Below are positions 13,542 to 26,055 of a DNA stretch of 64,000 nt, piece after piece. Both the position numbers and the translations under genes were made by a program. The stretch is from Salinibacterium sp. SWN248 (lineage in GTDB: Bacteria; Actinomycetota; Actinomycetes; Actinomycetales; Microbacteriaceae). Position 1 is the stretch's first letter; the number at the start of each line of letters is the position of its first letter. Location of the stretch: assembly GCF_015864575.1 (NCBI RefSeq), contig NZ_JADYWW010000001.1, positions 62,001-126,000 on the forward strand, in the 5' to 3' direction. The notes beneath the pieces were generated by a model, which worked only from the letters and a program-made list of their open reading frames with translations, was not told the DNA's origin and did not search any database.

Positions 13542-14390
13542 TCAGCAGTGCTCGAAGGTGTACTCGGCTGAGCCGGGCGACGTGAGATCGCGATCCCGCA
13601 GCATCGTGATGGGCGGTGTCGCGGCATCCGCACACACTTCAGTGAACGGGCGTCGCAGCTCATCGGTGTACTCGACGTCGATAACGGCGTCCCCATAAAA
13701 GTCGGTGAAGTCGCCGCACTCTGAGTACTGGTCGCACTCCTCCACGATCGCGAAGTCGAACCCGATGGCGGATGCCGCCTCCCCCAGCAGCTCGGCCGAG
13801 TTCTTCTGGGCTACCGCGAGTCCGCTGCTGTGGCCGAGCTGCACGAACAGCGTCGCCATTGCCACCGCCTGCTCGCGCTCAAGAACCCCGTCGGAGCGCG
13901 TGTAGCTGTCGAGGTTATCGAACTCGACTGCTGCGAAATCCTTACCTGCGCAGCTCTCAATCAGCGACGCCATCCGCTCGGCGATAGCGTCGCGATTGCT
14001 GGCGGTTCGGATGTCGAGCAGCGTTTCATCCGGCCAGTTCGCATCGATAACCGGGTCACCTTCGGCATCGTGCAGCAGCAGGTCGCTCGGCCACGACTCC
14101 CCCGGTTGCGACTGGAAACCGTTGAGGTAACAAATGGAATAGGCGCCGGCGAGCGGTTCTTCGCTGGCGTCGCGCACGACGACGGTGACGGCAGCGTCGG
14201 GCTCGTACGCTCCGCCGAGCTGGTAATCCGCGATGGCGCCCGCGGCGAAAAGGCCCGGCGAGGCGATAGCGGCGGGAGGGGCGCTGGGCTCAGTTGTTAG
14301 CGGAGCTGAGGCCGAGCATCCGGCCAGCACGACGAGCACGGCCGTGACACAGAGCGCAGGCAGCAAGGATCGCCGCGCGCGCACTGTCAT
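13542..14390 (-). CDS. GH114 endo-alpha-1,4-polygalactosaminidase-like lipoprotein
   Basis: 282 residues. An N-terminal signal ends in the lipobox LAGC (Cys25), so the mature protein is probably a membrane-anchored lipoprotein. The rest matches glycoside hydrolase family 114: YQLGG at the start, ICYLNGF, W(P)DETLLDIR, the acidic AVEFDNLDSY, AQKN, and EECDQYSECGDF. Known members cleave polygalactosamine exopolysaccharide, so a role in remodelling or degrading matrix is plausible. The frame continues upstream of ATG 14390, but that start gives the clean signal peptide and lies 7 bases after TAAGCT, a possible leaderless -10. Confidence 0.88.
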   Translation of the reverse strand: MTVRARRSLLPALCVTAVLVVLAGCSASAPLTTEPSAPPAAIASPGLFAAGAIADYQLGGAYEPDAAVTVVVRDASEEPLAGAYSICYLNGFQSQPGESWPSDLLLHDAEGDPVIDANWPDETLLDIRTASNRDAIAERMASLIESCAGKDFAAVEFDNLDSYTRSDGVLEREQAVAMATLFVQLGHSSGLAVAQKNSAELLGEAASAIGFDFAIVEECDQYSECGDFTDFYGDAVIDVEYTDELRRPFTEVCADAATPPITMLRDRDLTSPGSAEYTFEHC

Positions 14391-14400
14391 GCCGTCGAGC

Positions 14401-14658
14401 TTAGGCCGCTCCGGTGCGACGCGAGATGTACGTCGCACGCATGTGGGAGCGGTGAGGTGGCAACTCTGCCCGAATGAGCGCGAAGCTCGAAACGATTGCC
14501 AGCAGAGCAGAAAGACCCAACACCAGGGTCGGAAGCGGCGGGATGCCCGCGGCTACGTCAAGCCCGGTGCCGGCCACGATCAGCCAGACGGCGGCTGCCG
14601 CAGCGGCGGTAAGGCTCGCCAGAAGAACCACTACCCACCCGAATACTTTCCTGTTCAT
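14401..14658 (-). CDS. Small two-TM membrane protein, unknown
   Basis: 85 residues with two hydrophobic segments (about 7-29 and 38-62) and a basic C-terminal tail (HRSHMRATYISRRTG). I do not recognise the family. It starts at ATG 14658 after GGGGGC and ends 11 bases upstream of the GH114 lipoprotein ATG, so the two may be co-transcribed. Confidence 0.6.
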   Translation of the reverse strand: MNRKVFGWVVVLLASLTAAAAAAVWLIVAGTGLDVAAGIPPLPTLVLGLSALLAIVSSFALIRAELPPHRSHMRATYISRRTGAA

Positions 14659-14801: not shown

Positions 14802-15638
14802 CTAGGCGAGACGAAGCAGTCGAGCGCGCAACTCTTTAGGCGTCGATTCGGGCATTGCTGAGGAGAGTTCGCTGCGCTGGGGTAGCGCTCCGCCTTCGGA
14901 GACAATCGTGATGGCGCGGGCGAGGCTGCCACGGCCGACGTGCACGAGGGCGTTGTCATCGGCGTGCATTTCGAGCAAGAGGGCGACTTCGCGGGAGGCG
15001 TTGCGGGCGGTCGGCAACCACGGCAGGGAGACTTTCCACGCGGTGAAGAAAATCAGCACGATGTCGTGGCGCAGACGAACATGGGCACGTTCATGCTCGA
15101 TGACCGCTTGAAGTTCTTCTTCGTCGAGCAATTGCAGCAGCCCAGCGCTCAGCACAGTGATGGAGGTGAGTGCGCCGGGGAGGCAGTACGCGACGGGAGC
15201 GGGGGTGTTGATGACTCGCGTGCCGGGGCGATCAGACATCGGTTCGCTCAGCAGGGTGATGAGTTGGGAGTGCCGCGCGCGTTCACGCTCCGCGTAGACG
15301 ACGGTGACGAGGAGATTGAGCAGCAGGTGCGCGGTGAGGAAGAGAGCTCCCGAGAGGGCGAGTAACGACCACACCGAGGAGCCTTCGGGGAGTTCGTTGT
15401 GGGTGACGAAGCGCCACATGCCGGTTGCGGCATCCGGAAGGTCGGTTGCGAAAGTCGCCGCACCGAGCAGCACGAGTGAGACGATCATGCTGAAACCACC
15501 GACGAGCGCGACAAGTTGCCACACCAGCAGACCGAGGGTGGGGCGACGGTAGGCCCAGGTTGCTCCGGCCAGCAGTGCGGGCAGAGGCCACGCCAGCAGG
15601 ATTGCGATGAGGCCGAGCGTGATCGCGGCGGCTACCAC
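14802..15638 (-). CDS. M56-family membrane metalloprotease (BlaR1-like sensor)
   Basis: 278 residues with membrane segments near 5-27, 36-62 and 88-115 and the zinc motif HERAH at 182-186 (EHERAHVRLRHD), followed by another hydrophobic stretch. M56 proteases of this short type lack the penicillin sensor of BlaR1 and are thought to cleave the partner BlaI-type repressor. The gene begins two bases after the BlaI stop, so the pair is one operon. BlaI-type palindromes lie in front of the pair and of the divergent cydA. Confidence 0.9.
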   Translation of the reverse strand: MVAAAITLGLIAILLAWPLPALLAGATWAYRRPTLGLLVWQLVALVGGFSMIVSLVLLGAATFATDLPDAATGMWRFVTHNELPEGSSVWSLLALSGALFLTAHLLLNLLVTVVYAERERARHSQLITLLSEPMSDRPGTRVINTPAPVAYCLPGALTSITVLSAGLLQLLDEEELQAVIEHERAHVRLRHDIVLIFFTAWKVSLPWLPTARNASREVALLLEMHADDNALVHVGRGSLARAITIVSEGGALPQRSELSSAMPESTPKELRARLLRLA

Positions 15639-15640
15639 GG

Positions 15641-16003
15641 CTAGCGTCCGGCGAGAATGCGGCGGAGGGTTTCGGCTTCTTCGTTCGTGACCTGCCCGAC
15701 GAAGCGCTCAAGAACAGCGGTGCGGTCGTTGGCCCCGCCCAGCACTTCGTGCATGAGGTCGGCCATGTGTTCAGCACGAACAGAGGCGGCGCGGTAGCGG
15801 TGGGGGCGCACCTCTCGTTCACGCACCACGAAGTTTTTCTTTTCGAGACGGGAAAGAACGGTGAGCACCGTCGTGGCAGCGAGCTCGCGGCCCGACGATT
15901 CAGGGGATGCGAGTGCGGCCTGCAGGTCGTAGGCCGAGAGGCTTTCGCTATTCGCCCACAGCAGGTCCATCACGCTGCGTTCGAGTTCACCAAGGGAATT
16001 CAT
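15641..16003 (-). CDS. BlaI/MecI/CopY-family repressor
   Basis: 120 residues with the family winged helix (LGELERSVMDLLWAN, TTVLTVLSRLEKKNFV) and dimerisation tail. It is encoded just upstream of the M56 protease and divergently from cydA. The 120-base gap to cydA holds two perfect palindromes built from GTAGAA/TTCTAC half-sites, very like the TACA/TGTA-type operators of BlaI proteins. It is therefore a candidate regulator of cytochrome bd as well as of its own operon. In Mycobacterium tuberculosis BlaI is also linked to respiratory (ATP synthase) genes. Confidence 0.92.
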   Translation of the reverse strand: MNSLGELERSVMDLLWANSESLSAYDLQAALASPESSGRELAATTVLTVLSRLEKKNFVVREREVRPHRYRAASVRAEHMADLMHEVLGGANDRTAVLERFVGQVTNEEAETLRRILAGR

Positions 16004-16021
16004 GAGCCAATTCTACCCTAA

Positions 16022-16038
16022 GTAGAAATAATTTCTAC
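16022..16038. promoter_or_regulatory. BlaI-type operator 1
   Basis: GTAGAAATAATTTCTAC, a perfect 17-bp palindrome 18 bases upstream of the BlaI start. A further half copy, GTAGAAATG, follows at 16044-16052. Confidence 0.75.
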
Positions 16039-16063
16039 GAGGGTGTAGAAATGTATCCACAGC

Positions 16064-16084
16064 AGTTCTACAGAATGTAGAACT
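16064..16084. promoter_or_regulatory. BlaI-type operator 2, proximal to cydA
   Basis: AGTTCTAC (16064-16071) and GTAGAACT (16077-16084) form an 8-bp perfect inverted repeat around 5 bases, 40 bases before the cydA start. Confidence 0.7.
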
Positions 16085-16124
16085 AGAGCGCCGTCACACA
16101 GCAGCAGCAGCAGAAAGGTCCGGA

Positions 16125-17723
16125 GTGGATCCCCTAGAAATCGCCAGATGGCAATTCGGAATCACCACCGTCTACCACTTCATCATGGTTCCGCTCACGC
16201 TCGGCCTCGGCCCTGTCGTGGCGCTCATGCAAACCCAGTGGGTGCGCACGGGCGACGAGAAGTGGCTGCGCATGACCAAGTTCTGGGGCAAGTTATACCT
16301 CATCAACTTCATCATGGGTGTGGCCACCGGCCTCGTTCAGGAGTTCCAATTCGGCATGGCCTGGAGCGAGTACTCCCGCTACGTCGGTGACGTCTTCGGT
16401 GCCCCTCTCGCCATGGAGGGACTGCTCGCCTTCTTCTTCGAATCCGTCTTCCTCGGACTCTGGATCTTCGGCTGGGATCGTCTCGGCAAGAGGCTTCACC
16501 TCGCGACCCTCTGGATCGCCGTTGCCGGTTCCGTCGTCTCCGCCTTCTTCATCATCGTGGCCAACTCGTGGATGCAGCACCCGGTTGGTGTTGAGCTCAT
16601 CGACGGTCGCCCCGTCATGACCGACATCTGGGCCGTGCTCACCAACAACACCGCCCTCACCGCCTACGCGCACACCGTCACCGGTGCGATCGCTGTCGGC
16701 GCGGGCTTCGTCGTCGGCATCTCCTGGTACCAGCTCTGGCAGCGTCGTCGCGACAACATCGACACCGTGGATGCCACGGGCCGTGTCGTCATCGGCGAGA
16801 ACCTCAGCATCCCGGGCCGCGATCGCAAGGACCACTCGGTCTGGCTCACGAGCATCCGCGTCGCTGCGGTCATCGCGATCATCGGATTCGGCGGAGTCGC
16901 GATCACGGGCGACTTGCAGGCCAAGCTCATGTTCGAACAGCAGCCGCTCAAGATGGCCGCAGCCGAGGGTGCCTGCCACGATGGCACAAGCTTCTCGGTG
17001 CTGTCGATCGGAAACTTGGGTTCTGAGAACTGTGAAGATGTTGTCGCGATCATCGAGATCCCCGGCATCCTGTCTTTCTTGGCTCACGGTGACTTCGACA
17101 CCAATATCAAGGGCGTAAACACGCTCATCCCCGAGTACCAGGCGCTCTACGGCACCAACCTGCCGGATGACCCGCTGTACGGCGAGCGTGCCGGCCAGGA
17201 GATCAACTACCTGCCCATCATGGAGGTCACCTACTGGGGCTTCCGTCTGATGATCGGCTTCGGAATGCTCGCGGCAGCGTTTGCCGCCCTGACCCTGTGG
17301 ATTGTTCGCAAGGGAACCGTTCCGCAGTCCAAGTTCCTCATGGGAACCGCTCTGCTCAGCATTGCCGCCCCCTTCGGCGCCAACATCGCCGGCTGGGTCT
17401 TCACCGAAATGGGCCGCCAGCCCTTCGTGGTCGTGCCCAACCCCACGCCCGGCGGAGTTGACGGCGTGTACATGTTCACCGCGGCTGCCGTCTCCCCCGG
17501 AGTCAGTGGCGAAGAGATCATCTTCTCGCTCGCGACGCTCGCTCTCGTCTACGCCTTCCTGCTGGTCTTCGAGGTCAAGCTGCTCATCAAGTACGTGCGC
17601 GGTGGCGTTGCCTCAGCGATGCCCGAGCTCGGGCATCCCGAAGGCGACAGCGGCGATGGCAGCGACCCAGACGATCCCAACAAACCAGACAAGCGCGACG
17701 ACGTTCTCGCGTTCGCCTACTAA
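16125..17723 (+). CDS. cydA: Cytochrome bd ubiquinol/menaquinol oxidase subunit I
   Basis: 532 residues, the haem-bearing subunit that oxidises quinol and reduces oxygen to water. Haem ligand positions are seen as His18 (TTVYHFIMVPLTLG) and His183 (TAYAHTVTGA), the conserved AMEGLLAFFFE (Glu98) and the GRQPF motif near the quinol end. The C-terminus carries an extra acidic Asp/Pro/Lys-rich tail. GTG 16125 is used as start, after AAAGG. First gene of cydA-cydB-cydDC, with BlaI-type operators in the leader. Confidence 0.96.
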   Translation: MDPLEIARWQFGITTVYHFIMVPLTLGLGPVVALMQTQWVRTGDEKWLRMTKFWGKLYLINFIMGVATGLVQEFQFGMAWSEYSRYVGDVFGAPLAMEGLLAFFFESVFLGLWIFGWDRLGKRLHLATLWIAVAGSVVSAFFIIVANSWMQHPVGVELIDGRPVMTDIWAVLTNNTALTAYAHTVTGAIAVGAGFVVGISWYQLWQRRRDNIDTVDATGRVVIGENLSIPGRDRKDHSVWLTSIRVAAVIAIIGFGGVAITGDLQAKLMFEQQPLKMAAAEGACHDGTSFSVLSIGNLGSENCEDVVAIIEIPGILSFLAHGDFDTNIKGVNTLIPEYQALYGTNLPDDPLYGERAGQEINYLPIMEVTYWGFRLMIGFGMLAAAFAALTLWIVRKGTVPQSKFLMGTALLSIAAPFGANIAGWVFTEMGRQPFVVVPNPTPGGVDGVYMFTAAAVSPGVSGEEIIFSLATLALVYAFLLVFEVKLLIKYVRGGVASAMPELGHPEGDSGDGSDPDDPNKPDKRDDVLAFAY

Positions 17724-17741: not shown

Positions 17742-18803
17742 ATGGATCTTCCTACACTCTGGTTTATCGCGATCGCCGCTTTGTGGATCGGCTACCTCCT
17801 TCTCGAAGGCTTCGACCTCGGTGTCGGCATGCTGTTGCTCTTCAGCACCCGCAAAGACCGCGAACGTCGCCTCATGCTCAATGCCATCGGCCCGGTCTGG
17901 GACGGCAACGAGGTCTGGCTCATCACGGCCGGAGCCGCCACGTTTGCTGCATTCCCGTTTTGGTATGCATCCCTCTTCTCGGCGCTCTACATCCCGTTGA
18001 CGATCGTGCTTGTGAGCCTGATCTTCCGCGCGGTTGCCATTGAATACCGCGGCAAGGGTTCCACCGACAAGTGGCGCATGTGGTGGGATCGCGCTCTCGG
18101 GCTCGGCTCGCTCGGTTCCGCTTTCGGCATCGGTGCAGCGCTCGCGCTGACCACCACGGGCCTGCCGATCGACGCCAACGGTGACCGCGTCGGCGGTGCC
18201 TTCGCTTGGTTCACTCCCTATGCCGTCCTCGGCGGACTCGCGGTGGTCGGCTTTGCGCTCGTGCACGCTTCCGTCTTCCTCGGACTCAAGACCGATGGCG
18301 ACGTGCGCGTTCGTGCCCGCAAGTTCGTCGTGCGCTGGAGCCCCGTTGCTCTGCTACCGATCGTGGCGTGGGTGCTGATCATTCAGTTCCAGAACGGCAC
18401 TCTCATCACGTGGGCGCTCGTGGTTGTCGCGGTGGTTGCGGTCGTCTTCGGCTGGATCAGTGCGCGAGCCGGGCGTGAAGGCTGGGCCTTCGTGGGTATC
18501 GCAGCGTTCTTGGTCGCTGGTGCGTCATCCATCTTCGCCGCGGTCTACCCGGTGGTGCTGCCGTCGACGATTGACCCCGCGTTCAACCTGACGATTTCCA
18601 ACGCGGCGAGTGGCGAATATACGCTCGGCGTGATGAGCGTCGTGACCGCGTTTGGGCTGCCGCTGGTGTTCGTCTACCAGGGCTGGACCTACTGGGTGTT
18701 CCGCAATCGCCTGAGCGACAAGCACATCCCCGAGGCTCACATCGTGAAGCCCGCGGTTGCCCCCGCTTCGTCAGCCAGCGCCTCCTCGTCTTCAGCTAGC
18801 TAG
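17742..18803 (+). CDS. cydB: Cytochrome bd oxidase subunit II
   Basis: 353 residues, polytopic; begins with the family signature LPTLWFIAIAALWIGYLLLEGFD region and has the GPVWDGNEVWLI motif. It pairs with CydA in the membrane. The C-terminus ends in a Ser/Ala run. Follows cydA after 18 bases with AGAAGGGCAG as ribosome site. Confidence 0.97.
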   Translation: MDLPTLWFIAIAALWIGYLLLEGFDLGVGMLLLFSTRKDRERRLMLNAIGPVWDGNEVWLITAGAATFAAFPFWYASLFSALYIPLTIVLVSLIFRAVAIEYRGKGSTDKWRMWWDRALGLGSLGSAFGIGAALALTTTGLPIDANGDRVGGAFAWFTPYAVLGGLAVVGFALVHASVFLGLKTDGDVRVRARKFVVRWSPVALLPIVAWVLIIQFQNGTLITWALVVVAVVAVVFGWISARAGREGWAFVGIAAFLVAGASSIFAAVYPVVLPSTIDPAFNLTISNAASGEYTLGVMSVVTAFGLPLVFVYQGWTYWVFRNRLSDKHIPEAHIVKPAVAPASSASASSSSAS

Positions 18804-18809
18804 GGCACG

Positions 18810-21800
18810 ATGGAGGGCATGAGAGCCAAACTCCAGGAACGACTTGCGGCAGGCTTCGGCCCGGGCGGTGTGCACACACTGTTCGGGCTGGGTTTGCTGG
18901 CTTCCCTCAAGGGGTTGGCCCTCGTGCTTATGGCCGAGGCTGTCGCTCGCGGTGTCGTCGGCGTTATCGAAGCGGATGCCGCAGCCTGGCAATTTGCGAT
19001 CGTTCTGGGTATTGCAGCCGGCCTTCTCCGCGCGGCTACCGCCTGGGCTACAGAGAGTTTCGCGACCCGCGCCGCGTTAGGCGCCAAGGAGTCTCTGCGC
19101 CACGAACTCGCGGAGCGAGTACTCACCGGCTCCGACGCCCGCTCGGGCGCGAGCACCGCGATTGCGACCGTGGGGCTCGACGAGCTCGACAACTACTTTC
19201 GCGTGGTGCTGCCGGCGATCGTCACGACCGCAACGGTTCCGCTGTTGATTGGCGCCCGCATCCTCTCGGTCGACTGGGTGAGCGCGCTCATCATCGTGTT
19301 AACCGTTCCGCTTGTGCCGGTGTTCATGATTCTTGTGGGCGGGCACACTCGGGAGCGTGCTGATGCCGCCAGCGCAAGCCTCGAACGCCTCTCGGATCAT
19401 TTGGTTGAATTGGCCCGCGGCCTTCCGGTTCTCGTTGGCCTTGGTCGCGTCGGCGAGCAGTCGAAGGCGCTGCGATCGATCTCCGCCGAGAACCGCACCA
19501 AGACGATGGAGACCCTGCGCACTGCATTTCTCTCCGCTCTCGTTCTTGAACTTATCGCCACCATTTCGGTCGCGGTCGTTGCTGTTTTCGTCGGCGTTCG
19601 ACTCGTGGATGGTCAGCTCTCCCTCACCGTCGGCCTCATCGCTCTCGTGCTCGCGCCCGAGTGTTTCGCACCCTTCCGCGAGTTGGGTGCCGCGTTCCAC
19701 TCCTCCGAGAATGGACTCACCGCTCTGCGCCGCGCCCGCGCGATCATCGATGCGCCGCGCGCTCGGGAGCACCGCCAAAGTGCTGGTGGTTTCCGGGTCG
19801 TGAACCTCACGATCGCGTATGAGGGTCGTGCCGTTCCCGCGGTCGACGAGCTCAGCTTTCGCGCCGCCCCCGGCACCATCACCGCTCTGGACGGACCAAG
19901 CGGCAGCGGAAAATCCAGTGTTCTCGAGGTGCTCGCGGGCAATCGCGAGCCCAGCGGCGGCAGTGTGTGGGGCATCGACGTTTCCCGCGTGGCGTGGGTT
20001 CCGCAGCATCCGCACACCGTTGCTGACACCGTGCTCGACGAACTTCGCCTGTACAGCAGCGACGAGAAAGCGATCAAGTCGGTGCTGCTCGACCTCGGCC
20101 TCACCGGTGTCGCGGATGCCGACCCTCGCCAGGTAAGCCCCGGCGAGTTGCGCCGCATTGCCGTCGCGCGCGGACTGCTGCGCGTCGAAGCGGGCGCCAC
20201 CCTGTTGCTGCTCGATGAGCCGACCGCTCACTTGGATCCGGCATCCGCTGCCCGCGTTGAAGCCACGATTGCTGAGCTGCGCGGTCGCCCCGTCACCGTG
20301 CTGGTTGCTTCGCACGAAACGGGAATCGCCGCGTTGGCCGATCAGGTTGTTGCAGTGGGCGCTTCGGGCGGGACCCGCGCTGTCGAGGCTCGCATTGACC
20401 CGCTGACCGTTGACGGCGACGTGGATGTTGACGCTCTCGACGCGCCGCGAACCACCCGCGCGACTCTCGCCAGCCTGCTCGAGTTTGTGCGCCCCACCCT
20501 CGGAACCCTCGTCGGAGCGATCGCTCTCGGCACCGGCGCAAGCCTCTTCGCTCTCTCCCTCACCGCCCTCTCGGGCTGGTTGATTGTACGGGCCAGCGAG
20601 CAGCCGCCGATCATGTTCTTGCTCGTCGCCATTGTGGGCGTGCGGTTCTTCGGAATCGGTCGCGCGGCGCTACGCTACGCCGAACGCCTCGCCACCCACC
20701 GCGCTGTGCTCGGTTCGGTCATCGAGCTGCGGGTTGCCCTCTGGAACGGTCTGGGTGCTCGCGCTCTGGGCTCGCGCGCTCTCGCCAATGGCGGAGTCGC
20801 CCTCGATTACCTCGTTGCGGCCTCTGACCGGGTGCGCGATCTCGTTCCCCGCGTCGTGCTGCCGCCCGCCGTTGCCTTGGGCACCTCGCTCGCCGCGCTC
20901 ATTGCGGTCGGCCTGCTGCACGCTCCCGCGGTTCCCGTGCTGCTCGCCGGTCTCGCCGTCGGGCTCGTGGCGGCGCCCATCATTGCCGTGATCGTGGACC
21001 GCTCGGCCGCCAACGGCATCGCCGAAGTGCAGTCGCGCGTCGTGCGCGCCTTCGCCGCCATGACCGGTGCCGCGGCTGACCTGCGCGCCAACGGTGTTGG
21101 TGGGCGGATGCTCGCCCGCCTCGATCACATCGACGCCGAAGCCGGAGCACTCTCCCGCCGCAGCGCCCGCGCCCTCGGAATCGGCAACGCCGTCGTCGTG
21201 CTCGCCTGCTCGGTGACCGCCGTCGCGATGCTGCCCGTCGCCGCGCCCGCCGTTATCGCCGGCACCCTCCCGATCGGCATCGTCGCGGTGCTCGTGCTCA
21301 TCCCCATCGGTCTCGTCGATTCCCTCATCGCGTTCGTCGACTCCGTGCAGCAGTGGCCGGCGCTGAGTGCCGCGCTGGCGAAGGTGCGCGGGGTTACGGC
21401 GGGGGTTGAGCGTGCGGATCGTGCTGGCGGTGCTGCTTCCGGCGGCGCTGCTGCGGGAACGCGCCGCAGTAACCGAGCGCAGGCCGGAGCCGCGAGCGCA
21501 GACCGACCACTCGGTGACGTGACTGTTCTCGAACTGAGTGAGCTCGACATCCGCTGGCCTTCGAGCCCGACGCTGGCGTTCTCGGGCGCGACCGCTCGGG
21601 TTGAGCGCGGCGAGTGGCTTGTCGTGGAGGGTCCGTCGGGCGCGGGCAAGTCGACGTTGTTGGCGGCGCTGCTCGGCTACCTTCCGGCGGCCGCAGGTTC
21701 GTGGAGCCTCAATGGGGTGGATGCGCGCGAGCTCTCGCCCGAGCAATTGCGCGCGGCGGTGACGTGGTGTCCGCAGGAGTCGCACCTCTTCGATTCAACG

Positions 21801-22193
21801 ATTCGTGCGAACCTGCTGTTGGGTCGCGCCCACGACGATCAGCCGACCGAGCAGGAGCTCATTGCAGTGCTGCGCCAGGTGGGTCTTGGCCCGCTCTTCG
21901 ATTCGCTCGACCGCGGCCTCGACACTCGAGTGGGCTCAGCGGGCGAAAGCCTGTCGGGCGGTGAGCGTCAGCGCTTGGCCGTTGCCCGCACCCTGCTCAC
22001 GCGGGCAGATGTCGTGCTGCTCGATGAGCCGACCGCCCACTTGGATGCCGCGAGCGCCGAGCAGCTCATCACCGACCTGCGCACAGCTCTCGCCGACAAG
22101 ATCGTGGTGCTCGTGAGCCATCACGATGATGAGCGTCGCGACGACGATGTGAGCTTGCGACTCGGGGTGCGCGAGCAGGTTGCTTCGTTGTAA
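18810..22193 (+). CDS. cydDC: Fused CydD-CydC thiol ABC exporter
   Basis: One 1127-residue chain carries two complete ABC half-exporters. The first (about 1-535, CydD) has membrane helices, Walker A GPSGSGKSS, signature SPGELRR and LLLLDEPTAHLD. The second (about 545-1127, CydC) has its own membrane domain, Walker A GPSGAGKST, LSGGERQRLAVAR and VVLLDEPTAHLD. The CydDC exporter moves cysteine/glutathione-type thiols out of the cytoplasm and is required for cytochrome bd assembly. The head-to-tail fusion is common in actinobacteria. It starts six bases after cydB; ATG 18819 is an alternative start. Confidence 0.95.
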   Translation: MEGMRAKLQERLAAGFGPGGVHTLFGLGLLASLKGLALVLMAEAVARGVVGVIEADAAAWQFAIVLGIAAGLLRAATAWATESFATRAALGAKESLRHELAERVLTGSDARSGASTAIATVGLDELDNYFRVVLPAIVTTATVPLLIGARILSVDWVSALIIVLTVPLVPVFMILVGGHTRERADAASASLERLSDHLVELARGLPVLVGLGRVGEQSKALRSISAENRTKTMETLRTAFLSALVLELIATISVAVVAVFVGVRLVDGQLSLTVGLIALVLAPECFAPFRELGAAFHSSENGLTALRRARAIIDAPRAREHRQSAGGFRVVNLTIAYEGRAVPAVDELSFRAAPGTITALDGPSGSGKSSVLEVLAGNREPSGGSVWGIDVSRVAWVPQHPHTVADTVLDELRLYSSDEKAIKSVLLDLGLTGVADADPRQVSPGELRRIAVARGLLRVEAGATLLLLDEPTAHLDPASAARVEATIAELRGRPVTVLVASHETGIAALADQVVAVGASGGTRAVEARIDPLTVDGDVDVDALDAPRTTRATLASLLEFVRPTLGTLVGAIALGTGASLFALSLTALSGWLIVRASEQPPIMFLLVAIVGVRFFGIGRAALRYAERLATHRAVLGSVIELRVALWNGLGARALGSRALANGGVALDYLVAASDRVRDLVPRVVLPPAVALGTSLAALIAVGLLHAPAVPVLLAGLAVGLVAAPIIAVIVDRSAANGIAEVQSRVVRAFAAMTGAAADLRANGVGGRMLARLDHIDAEAGALSRRSARALGIGNAVVVLACSVTAVAMLPVAAPAVIAGTLPIGIVAVLVLIPIGLVDSLIAFVDSVQQWPALSAALAKVRGVTAGVERADRAGGAASGGAAAGTRRSNRAQAGAASADRPLGDVTVLELSELDIRWPSSPTLAFSGATARVERGEWLVVEGPSGAGKSTLLAALLGYLPAAAGSWSLNGVDARELSPEQLRAAVTWCPQESHLFDSTIRANLLLGRAHDDQPTEQELIAVLRQVGLGPLFDSLDRGLDTRVGSAGESLSGGERQRLAVARTLLTRADVVLLDEPTAHLDAASAEQLITDLRTALADKIVVLVSHHDDERRDDDVSLRLGVREQVASL

Positions 22194-24583: not shown

Positions 24584-25525
24584 CTACCGCGCCGCGGCCT
24601 GCTCTATCTCTTTAACCCACTCGTTGAGCGTAGCCAGAGCCTCTTCGAGGCTCGCCTTGATCGCGGCTTGATCGGCCGGCTTCTGCCATCCTTCTGCCCA
24701 ACTTTTCCATGTCGTGATTTCGGGCGGCCACCTACGAGGCGTGAACCCGAGTTTCTCCGCTTCAGCCGCGCGCGCTTCAAAAACGTCCTCGGCAGCTGCC
24801 TTCACCGTGGAAAGTTCACTACCGGCGGGAAAGAAGGCGTCACGAAGCAAAAGCAAGTCGACCACGTCGCGAACCCGGTCGTTGAAGAATGGTTTGCCGC
24901 CGCCTTCTGGGGTTGGGTCATCGGGATCGGTGCAGGCGTGGAGTTTCTGCGCGACCTGGTAGGCCATTGTTATTCCCGCAATCTCGTCGGGAATACCTAG
25001 ATCCAAAGCGCTGAGGTCGGGAGCCGTAAAACGCTCGTCGCCCTCCCCAATCTTGCCTTCGGAAAATGACACTTCAACTTTGATTTTGCGGAACACCTGT
25101 CCGCGGATCTTAAGTTGGATGTGAAACCGCCGAGGCTTGTTAGTCGTGCGTGCGTTCTCAACTGTCTCAATCTCAGTTCGGGTCAACTCGAACGGCTCCC
25201 ACGGCTCCGCGAGGACTGAATCGAGTGCGGACTCGAAGTCCGCTATCGCACCCCGGTAGACAGTGTCCACGTCCTTTGTCGCACGCGCACCAATTTCAAG
25301 ACGATGTTCGAGATAAGCGCCACCCTTGATCAGAAATTCTGGGCGACCATCGGCGCCCAGAGCCCTTTGCAGCACCGCCATCACGATCACGGAGCCAGCG
25401 AGCCAGCCAAGACGGTCAACCGCCTGATCGGTCTTTTTCGCAGCCGCATTAAGAAACGAATTGAGAGCCGCTGTGTTCTTGGGCAGGGCGTCACGCGGCG
25501 GCAACCCTTCGAAGGTGCTCTTCAC
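24584..25525 (-). CDS. AbiEii/AbiGii-type nucleotidyltransferase toxin
   Basis: 313 residues of the MNT-like AbiEii superfamily. The signature KGGAYLEHR followed by ATKDVDTVY gives the nucleotidyltransferase motif I (K, G-G, D-x-D). Later conserved segments are QVAQKLHACT and NDRVRDVVDLLLLR. AbiEii-type toxins transfer nucleotides to RNA (for MenT, tRNA) and act in type IV toxin-antitoxin and phage-abortive systems. Overlaps the antitoxin gene by four bases. Confidence 0.9.
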   Translation of the reverse strand: MKSTFEGLPPRDALPKNTAALNSFLNAAAKKTDQAVDRLGWLAGSVIVMAVLQRALGADGRPEFLIKGGAYLEHRLEIGARATKDVDTVYRGAIADFESALDSVLAEPWEPFELTRTEIETVENARTTNKPRRFHIQLKIRGQVFRKIKVEVSFSEGKIGEGDERFTAPDLSALDLGIPDEIAGITMAYQVAQKLHACTDPDDPTPEGGGKPFFNDRVRDVVDLLLLRDAFFPAGSELSTVKAAAEDVFEARAAEAEKLGFTPRRWPPEITTWKSWAEGWQKPADQAAIKASLEEALATLNEWVKEIEQAAAR

Positions 25526-26055
25526 AGGTTGCTCTCTAGCTCGATCAGCTCTTCCGCGGTCAGCTGCCCGCGTGCGCGCGCGGTCTCGATTGCCTGATGC
25601 AGAAGATGCCGGGGAACCTTTGTCTCAATTCCTTGTTCGATTGCCGCGAGCACCGTGACTACGGGGATTCCCTCCCACCAACTTCGTTCGCGTGGGGAGA
25701 GGTGGTCGCTATGGAGTTGCACACCGGCAATGTTGCGGCGCACTCGCGTCTTCCCGATGTTGACGTGGATGATGTCGGGATTGATATCGCAGAGGTCGTG
25801 CACCAGCAAGGCCGTGTCGTGCGACAGGATCGCGTCGGGAGCACCGGTGGCGAGCACAGCACGCATGTAGTCATCGCGTTCAGTGTGAGGCAGCTCAGGG
25901 AACCGGTAGAGCCCGTGCGAGACGCGTTCCAGCTTTTCTCGTGATGCCAACTTGGCCAGCTCCACAGCCGAGAAACCCAGCTCTCGTGCATCCTGAGTGG
26001 TCACGAATCCGTACTGCGTTGTAGCGATTGGCCAGAGCTCTGTTCGCAAGGTCAT
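25522..26055 (-). CDS. AbiEi-type antitoxin / transcriptional regulator
   Basis: 177 residues. The N-terminal winged helix (YGFVTTQDARELGFSAVELAKLAS...GLYRF) is the type IV antitoxin (AbiEi_4) domain, followed by the DAILSHDTALLVHDL and HxxxxRR-like middle region of the family. AbiEi represses its own operon through inverted repeats; an exact 11-bp repeat stands right upstream (26069-26098). Ribosome site GGAGGAACC before ATG 26055. Confidence 0.9.
   Translation of the reverse strand: MTLRTELWPIATTQYGFVTTQDARELGFSAVELAKLASREKLERVSHGLYRFPELPHTERDDYMRAVLATGAPDAILSHDTALLVHDLCDINPDIIHVNIGKTRVRRNIAGVQLHSDHLSPRERSWWEGIPVVTVLAAIEQGIETKVPRHLLHQAIETARARGQLTAEELIELESNL

Follow-up and report, generated by a model that had tools for sequence, protein, structure and literature searches.

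The stretch of DNA analysed here, referred to as the window, comprises 64,000 nucleotides of Salinibacterium sp. SWN248 (contig NZ_JADYWW010000001.1, positions 62,001 to 126,000). It contains blaI, encoding a BlaI/MecI/CopY-family repressor, followed by a gene for an M56/M48-type membrane metalloprotease, and this pair diverges from the cytochrome bd oxidase genes cydA-cydB-cydDC. Control of the cyd operon by the BlaI/M56 pair is strongly supported by comparative genomics, because the divergent pairing is conserved, the dyads between blaI and cydA are conserved, dyads at cydA genes distant from blaI occur only where the genome was found to encode a BlaI, and a search with the DNA pattern alone lands on cydA. 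This bears out the original prediction, made from the letters of this DNA, that the pair is positioned to control the cyd operon. Taken as a whole, it is probable that dyad-bound BlaI represses both itself and cydABDC, and that the M56 protease relieves this repression when copper-dependent respiration fails. The dyads themselves are well supported as predicted sites; we infer that BlaI binds them, that the M56 protein cleaves BlaI, and what the signal is.

Putative operator dyads in the blaI-cydA gap

The gap carries six copies of one half-site, arranged as three inward-facing dyads, TTCTAC-N5/6-GTAGAA (Table 1). Exact dyads number three in the gap and zero in every one of 5000 dinucleotide shuffles. 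Nine perfect 6-base inverted repeats with a spacer of 0 to 8 are present, whereas 2000 shuffles averaged 0.13 and never exceeded 3. The whole genome, which is 3.05 Mb and close to Salinibacterium, has four exact N5/6 dyads, three of them inside this gap. The fourth (G000:C1:1484237) lies before a TetR gene, is kept in two sister species and overlaps an apparent second palindrome. It is not counted as a BlaI site; the overlapping palindrome is perhaps the operator of that TetR regulator.

The original prediction described a 121-base gap holding a perfect 17-bp palindrome and a second, 8+5+8 inverted repeat, both made of the same GTAGAA/TTCTAC half-site. The gap length is confirmed, the 8+5+8 repeat is dyad 3, and the half-site is indeed shared. 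The 17-bp palindrome is also present, but the parsing into two palindromes needs correction, as the six half-sites make three inward dyads and the palindrome is the junction between the first two. It was rejected as an operator unit because the outward spacer-5 type is found in 20 of the 75 relatives' gaps, versus 70 of 75 for the inward unit.

Only one promoter-like match was found in 15900–16250, that of blaI; it agrees with the consensus at 9 of 12 bases, and shuffles would give 0.2 such matches. Its -35-like TAGAAA overlaps dyad 2 and its -10-like TAGAAT overlaps dyad 1, six bases before the ATG, and the blaI message is therefore likely to be leaderless. In 49 of 75 relatives TANNNT is present 4–9 bases before the blaI start, against 5.9 expected. 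Since the predicted promoter lies within dyads 1 and 2, binding at both would directly switch off blaI.

Conservation across genomes

A protein search with the window BlaI against 199 genomes of the family Microbacteriaceae gave 107 matches in 103 genomes. CydA was found in 153 of the 199, and the comparisons use the 150 cydA rows among the matches listed. Of the 107 BlaI matches, 68 are at most 700 bp from a cydA among those listed, and all 68 are divergent by coordinates. A total of 77 loci were fetched, consisting of all 76 BlaI matches of at least 50% identity and one 47% match adjoining cydA. Divergent cydA is found at 75 of these and a protease match nearby at 76 (tblastn).

An exact dyad is present in 70 of the 75 blaI-cydA gaps. 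These gaps contain 158 exact dyads in total, with spacer 5 in 136 and spacer 6 in 22, and 62 of the 88 centre-to-centre distances between neighbouring dyads are 21–25 bases, about two helical turns. Five gaps have no exact dyad (L055, L089, L108, L121 and L123); the first four each have two one-mismatch dyads, and L123 carries TACTAC-N5-GTAGTA instead. None of the 77 stretches contains any of six permuted half-site pairs, even with one mismatch allowed. Of the 134 exact N5 dyads in 50 cyd-linked genomes, 100 fall in the blaI-cydA gap and 34 elsewhere. A set of named loci, including Leifsonia, Cryobacterium, Mycetocola, Okibacterium and four Geodermatophilaceae, has an exact dyad at 21 of 21 and adjacent cydA at 19 of 21, although this set partly overlaps the family sample (for example, L057 and G082 are one genome). 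BlaI is 93–94% identical in the nearest named relatives.

The dyads are also found at cydA genes away from blaI. Of the 150 cydA rows listed, 82 are without an adjacent BlaI, and 1.3 kb around the start was taken for all of these. Dyads with at most one mismatch were found at seven, two of them exact. All seven are among the 23 with BlaI elsewhere in the genome, defined as a match in the family protein search with E up to 1e-10, versus 0 of the 59 with none found (Fisher p 6e-5). Counted by genus, this is 4 of 16 versus 0 of 32 (p 0.009). Five of the six permuted half-site pairs gave no match in the 82 regions and one gave a single match. Genus g73 has three dyads at cydA, one of them with a mismatch in G072, and its detected blaI is at another place.

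A DNA-only search, for a dyad and then a third half-site within 30 bases, was made in 394 genomes of the class. It matched 28 genomes, this one included, and in 22 of the 28 a match is beside cydA: four of five in Microbacteriaceae, three of three in family f2, 14 of 15 in f25, one of one in f48 and none of four in other genomes. Three of these four remaining genomes (G214, G491 and G355) have a BlaI-like gene at the locus instead. Family f25 is distant, and its CydA is only about 30% identical to that of the window; the four f25 proteins tested are CydA by Pfam. Five f25 genomes (G416, G317, G391, G516 and G346) have no BlaI match on the same contig, and a sixth, G307, has none within 500 kb; in G366 BlaI is about 2 kb from the site. 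The six are mostly draft genomes, with only 649 bases between the site and the contig end in G346, therefore the separation of BlaI and cydA is sure only in G307 and, at several kb, in G416.

The BlaI tree has 125 rows and few columns, and many of its forks are open. A clade of 85 rows (support 99/83) contains 82 cyd-linked BlaI, two from genus g17 and that of Arthrobacter H14. Its cyd-linked members come from Microbacteriaceae, f2 and Geodermatophilaceae; the f25 rows and two from genus g7 fall outside. Two cydA lineages, 63–100% and 40–44% identical to the CydA of the window, interleave within the clade. On this tree the lineage labels must change 6 and 4 times, and 3 changes each, over the tree as a whole, are forced by starred branches. 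This suggests that the regulator and its dyads stayed in place while cydA was exchanged. In genus g7 (L123 and L140), where BlaI is outside the main clade, the same gap has the TACTAC-N5-GTAGTA operator. Operator and regulator appear here to have changed together, in a natural shift of operator specificity.

Proteins of the locus

The blaI product is the only PF03965 (Penicillinase_R) match of its genome, at 71.9 bits against a curated cut-off of 22.6. The only solved chain that it matched at E 0.01 is 2g9w, an entry named 'conserved hypothetical protein', which we take to be the mycobacterial BlaI, Rv1846c. The window BlaI contains no cysteine and therefore does not have the C-terminal CxC metal site of CopY sensors. 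The NCBIfam CopY model matches it weakly, at 29.9 bits against a cut-off of 122.

The protease scores 37 bits with Pfam M48, over the cut-off of 20.3. At E 0.001, the aligned proteases match M56 in 14 of 21 cases and M48 in 21 of 21. The HExxH motif and downstream glutamate of M56 are present, with HERAH at residues 182–186, and the window protein has four hydrophobic regions. All 76 relatives compared share residues H182, E183, H186, E223 and D227, and ADD is conserved. Upstream of the active site, in an AYC-L/V-PG-like motif, Cys152 is likewise invariant in these 76, the cyd-linked proteases included. When other proteases were aligned by eye, this cysteine was present in the two f25 proteins checked and absent from the four PCuAC-linked proteins checked, and in two other distant proteases a cysteine is one position earlier. 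BlaR1 chains are marginal matches of the protease family profile (E 0.04 and 0.1), and no extracellular penicillin-binding sensor domain was found in the 278-residue protein at E 0.001. The proteases of this genus end at about 278 residues, without the C-terminal hydrophobic stretch that is present in the other aligned relatives.

The cyd genes are all co-directional, forming a cydABDC operon with cydD and cydC fused. The original prediction that no beta-lactamase gene is near holds for what was scanned: Pfam searches of 18 proteins encoded from 5.5 to 27.6 kb, BlaI, the protease and the cyd proteins among them, gave no beta-lactamase or PBP2a family and no penicillin-binding domain, with small open reading frames and the remaining window unscanned.

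Table 1. Positions in the window of the blaI-cyd locus, its dyads and neighbouring features
Feature	Position	Strand	Description
GH114-family glycoside hydrolase-like gene	13542-14438	-	Downstream of the protease gene
M56/M48-type membrane metalloprotease gene, BlaR-like	14802-15638	-	278 residues; starts 2 nt after blaI; Pfam M48 and M56
blaI	15641-16003	-	BlaI/MecI/CopY-family repressor, 120 residues; PF03965 E 7e-20
blaI-cydA gap	16004-16124		121 bases
Dyad 1, TTCTAC-N5-GTAGAA	16011-16027		Overlaps the probable blaI -10, TAGAAT; transcript then leaderless
Perfect 17-bp palindrome	16022-16038		Inner arms of dyad 1 and dyad 2, back to back; probably not an independent unit
Dyad 2, TTCTAC-N6-GTAGAA	16033-16050		Overlaps the -35-like hexamer of blaI
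Dyad 3, TTCTAC-N5-GTAGAA	16066-16082		Contained in the 8+5+8 repeat at 16064-16084, also parsed as 9+3+9
cydA	16125-17723	+	Cytochrome bd oxidase subunit I; PF01654 E 5e-150
cydB	17742-18803	+	Subunit II; PF02322 E 3e-98
cydD-cydC fusion	18810-22193	+	One protein of 1127 residues; TIGR02857 at residues 25-516 and TIGR02868 at 555-1105, both over cut-off
AbiEii nucleotidyltransferase toxin, AbiEi antitoxin gene just upstream	24584-26055	-	Ordinary type IV toxin-antitoxin pair

Signal and alternative explanations

The gap would be a shared, auto-regulated operator region. BlaI dimers would bind dyads about two helical turns apart and so silence the leaderless blaI-M56 transcript together with the divergent cydA-cydB-cydDC. 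When aa3 respiration no longer suffices, whether from copper shortage, inhibition, low oxygen or some related signal at the membrane, the M56 protease would be activated and would cleave BlaI, and cytochrome bd would then be made. Cytochrome bd needs haem and no copper, whereas the aa3 oxidase is copper-dependent. This difference, the copper-linked sister pairs described below and the copper-deprivation responses of M. tuberculosis are the reasons for which failing copper-dependent respiration is favoured, with moderate confidence, as the probable signal. M. tuberculosis is reported to raise expression of cydABDC, qcrABC and the ATP synthase genes when chalkophore-deficient cells are deprived of copper, and of cydAB and the ATP synthase genes on oxidase inhibition (PMC12140626); searching the text of this study turned up no named regulator for the cydABDC and ATP synthase response. 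Cytochrome bd and ATP synthase genes are also reported to be up in a copper-starved sigC mutant (PMC7924339).

The distant BlaI pairs of the family form a separate part of the tree, and some adjoin copper genes. In G128 the pair adjoins genes for PCuAC and a DyP peroxidase (Pfam), followed by a CopC-like gene (by eye), and similar neighbours were recognised by eye in G131, G181, G083 and G059. There are exact dyads upstream of PCuAC-DyP (G013) and of a gene pair with CopC last (G172), and next to a DUF1775/YcnI gene (G163). In G083, where BlaI adjoins the PCuAC-like gene, the distant cydA has a one-mismatch dyad. For about half of the 30 distant pairs fetched, no copper gene was recognised in the roughly 1.5 kb that flank the pair at each end; 16 of the 30 have no dyad at up to one mismatch.

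Of the 34 dyads outside the gap in the 50 cyd-linked genomes, 32 were inspected; one to two members of most classes were tested with Pfam and the others judged by eye. Four precede ctaC-ctaD (G007, G090, G153 and G040, two genera), three precede atpB (G085, G148 and G040, two genera) and three precede pta (G001, G085 and G148, one genus). Two further g8 genomes were added after G007 showed the ctaC site, and the site is present in both, in G090 with a different spacer and diverged flanks. The other dyads are at genes for a flavohaemoglobin-like protein (2), an MFS transporter that is NarK-like by eye (2), an unnamed membrane protein (2), TetR (3) and adenosine deaminase (3), and one each at genes for a pyrophosphatase, a radical SAM protein, MarR, an ArsR-like regulator, PdxS, a DUF1254 protein and an amidase-like protein; three are unclear. 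The adenosine deaminase dyads, exact and close before the gene, are from three species of genus g53 (L348, L349, L350 at 1501), with the arms kept and the spacer varying. As sites they were set aside: they overlap a TAGAAT just ahead of the ATG and may be chance matches of promoter-like sequence. The extra dyads that three genera have at aa3 oxidase or ATP synthase genes, together with the copper-linked sister pairs, give indirect backing to a respiratory signal.

Several observations weigh against control of cyd and respiration by the pair. The dyads outside the gap are near chance, at 34 versus 25 for the reversed pattern; a wider regulon as a family-wide rule was rejected for this reason, although genera g2, g8 and g41 have 21 versus 5 in the control and the remaining genera 13 versus 20. 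In the genome of the window no respiratory gene with a dyad outside the gap was found. No dyad at up to one mismatch is present at 16 of the 23 non-adjacent cydA with BlaI elsewhere. Salinibacterium soli (L066) and Arthrobacter H14 (L070) have the pair and the dyad, with no cydA in the fetched stretch. The two genomes of genus g17 have a BlaI-M56 pair of the main clade with neither an exact dyad nor an adjacent cydA, and the single g17 cydA fetched carries no dyad. The -10 of cydA could not be placed, with candidates after the last dyad in 6 of 74 relatives versus 14.9 expected; TACNNT inside a dyad, in the cydA sense, shows a mild enrichment (48 of 74 versus 34.7). The Pfam M56 score of the protease, 24.4 bits, is below the cut-off of 31.

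A link between BlaI and respiration is already in print for M. tuberculosis. There, BlaI is stated to bind the cytochrome bd and ATP synthase promoters, citing Sala 2009 (PMC5473688), and was shown to bind and lower Rv1303, which is co-transcribed with ATP synthase genes (PMC12565901). The likeness to the mycobacterial BlaI/BlaR pair (Rv1846c/Rv1845c) extends to the protease, as mycobacterial BlaR is described as having no sensor domain (PMC5473688) and the window protease has no penicillin-binding domain. The mycobacterial pair also serves a beta-lactamase gene, whereas that of the window is tied to the cyd operon, three dyads occupying the shared gap, and no beta-lactamase gene was found among its scanned neighbours. 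No description of a dedicated blaI-M56/cyd module, its dyads or its spread, and no paper on the blaI-cyd pairing in Microbacteriaceae, was found in the searches made of PMC full texts with open licences.

The mycobacterial pair has been proposed to respond to cell-wall or beta-lactam damage, and the signal might instead be of this kind here, with cytochrome bd induced as part of that stress response. The match to 2g9w, our presumed mycobacterial BlaI, fits this, as do the reported link of the sensor-less BlaR and BlaI of M. tuberculosis to beta-lactam exposure and the rise of cydAB under amoxicillin-clavulanate (PMC5473688). It is nevertheless unlikely, given that no beta-lactamase or penicillin-binding domain is among the 18 locus proteins, that sister pairs adjoin copper genes and that the extra dyads precede oxidase and ATP synthase genes. 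The staphylococcal BlaI-BlaR1 and MecI-MecR1 systems likewise combine a PF03965 repressor and a membrane metalloprotease with TAC...GTA operator arms (PMC7593790, PMC7253601). Staphylococcal BlaR1, however, is described with an extracellular beta-lactam sensor domain (PMC7593790) that the window protease does not have, and the operator core of BlaI/MecI/CopY repressors, TACA-NN-TGTA (PMC7253601), has 4 bases between TAC and GTA, versus 5–6 here.

It is very unlikely that BlaI regulates only itself and the protease, cydA being a chance neighbour with its own regulator. The probable blaI promoter does sit within dyads 1 and 2, and the dyad-bearing pairs of Salinibacterium soli and Arthrobacter H14 are those expected of self-regulation, but three dyads span the gap, the DNA-only search lands on cydA, and dyads occur at cydA far from BlaI and at 0 of 59 where no BlaI was found. 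It is also highly improbable that the dyads belong to another respiration regulator, such as a redox or oxygen sensor, of which blaI is one target. The dyads before ctaC, atpB and pta in some genera would suit such a regulator, yet dyads are absent from the 59 cydA regions without a BlaI found, precede some copper-linked BlaI pairs and change along with the divergent BlaI of genus g7. Release of BlaI by direct binding of a metal or ligand, with the M56 protein not its protease, has a similarly slight probability: BlaI and CopY are related (PMC7253601) and the CopY model matches weakly, but BlaI has no cysteine for a CopY-type CxC, the protease match is at 76 of 77 loci, and neither the HExxH nor the glutamate of the protease varies in 76 of 76 compared. 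The CopY/CopR copper repressors do resemble the system in being related repressors with paired operators, and in the copper theme of the sister pairs, although CopY binds metal through CxC motifs (PMC7253601) and the cysteine-free BlaI has a protease partner.

Repression of blaI and cydABDC by dyad-bound BlaI, relieved by the M56 protease, may be part of a wider pattern. We tentatively suggest, as a possibility that falls short of being the likelier case, that the BlaI-M56 pair of Actinomycetes originally senses failing copper-dependent respiration and derepresses copper-free cytochrome bd, with genes for aa3 oxidase, ATP synthase, acetate overflow and copper acquisition added in some genera, the beta-lactamase switch being a side branch of the same kind of system. 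The module bears on the way in which actinobacteria turn to cytochrome bd once their main oxidase fails. If the proposed control is correct, a dedicated, conserved repressor-protease module with defined sites, present in relatives that are harmless, would make this switch testable, and the BlaI family would shift from antibiotic resistance to respiration.

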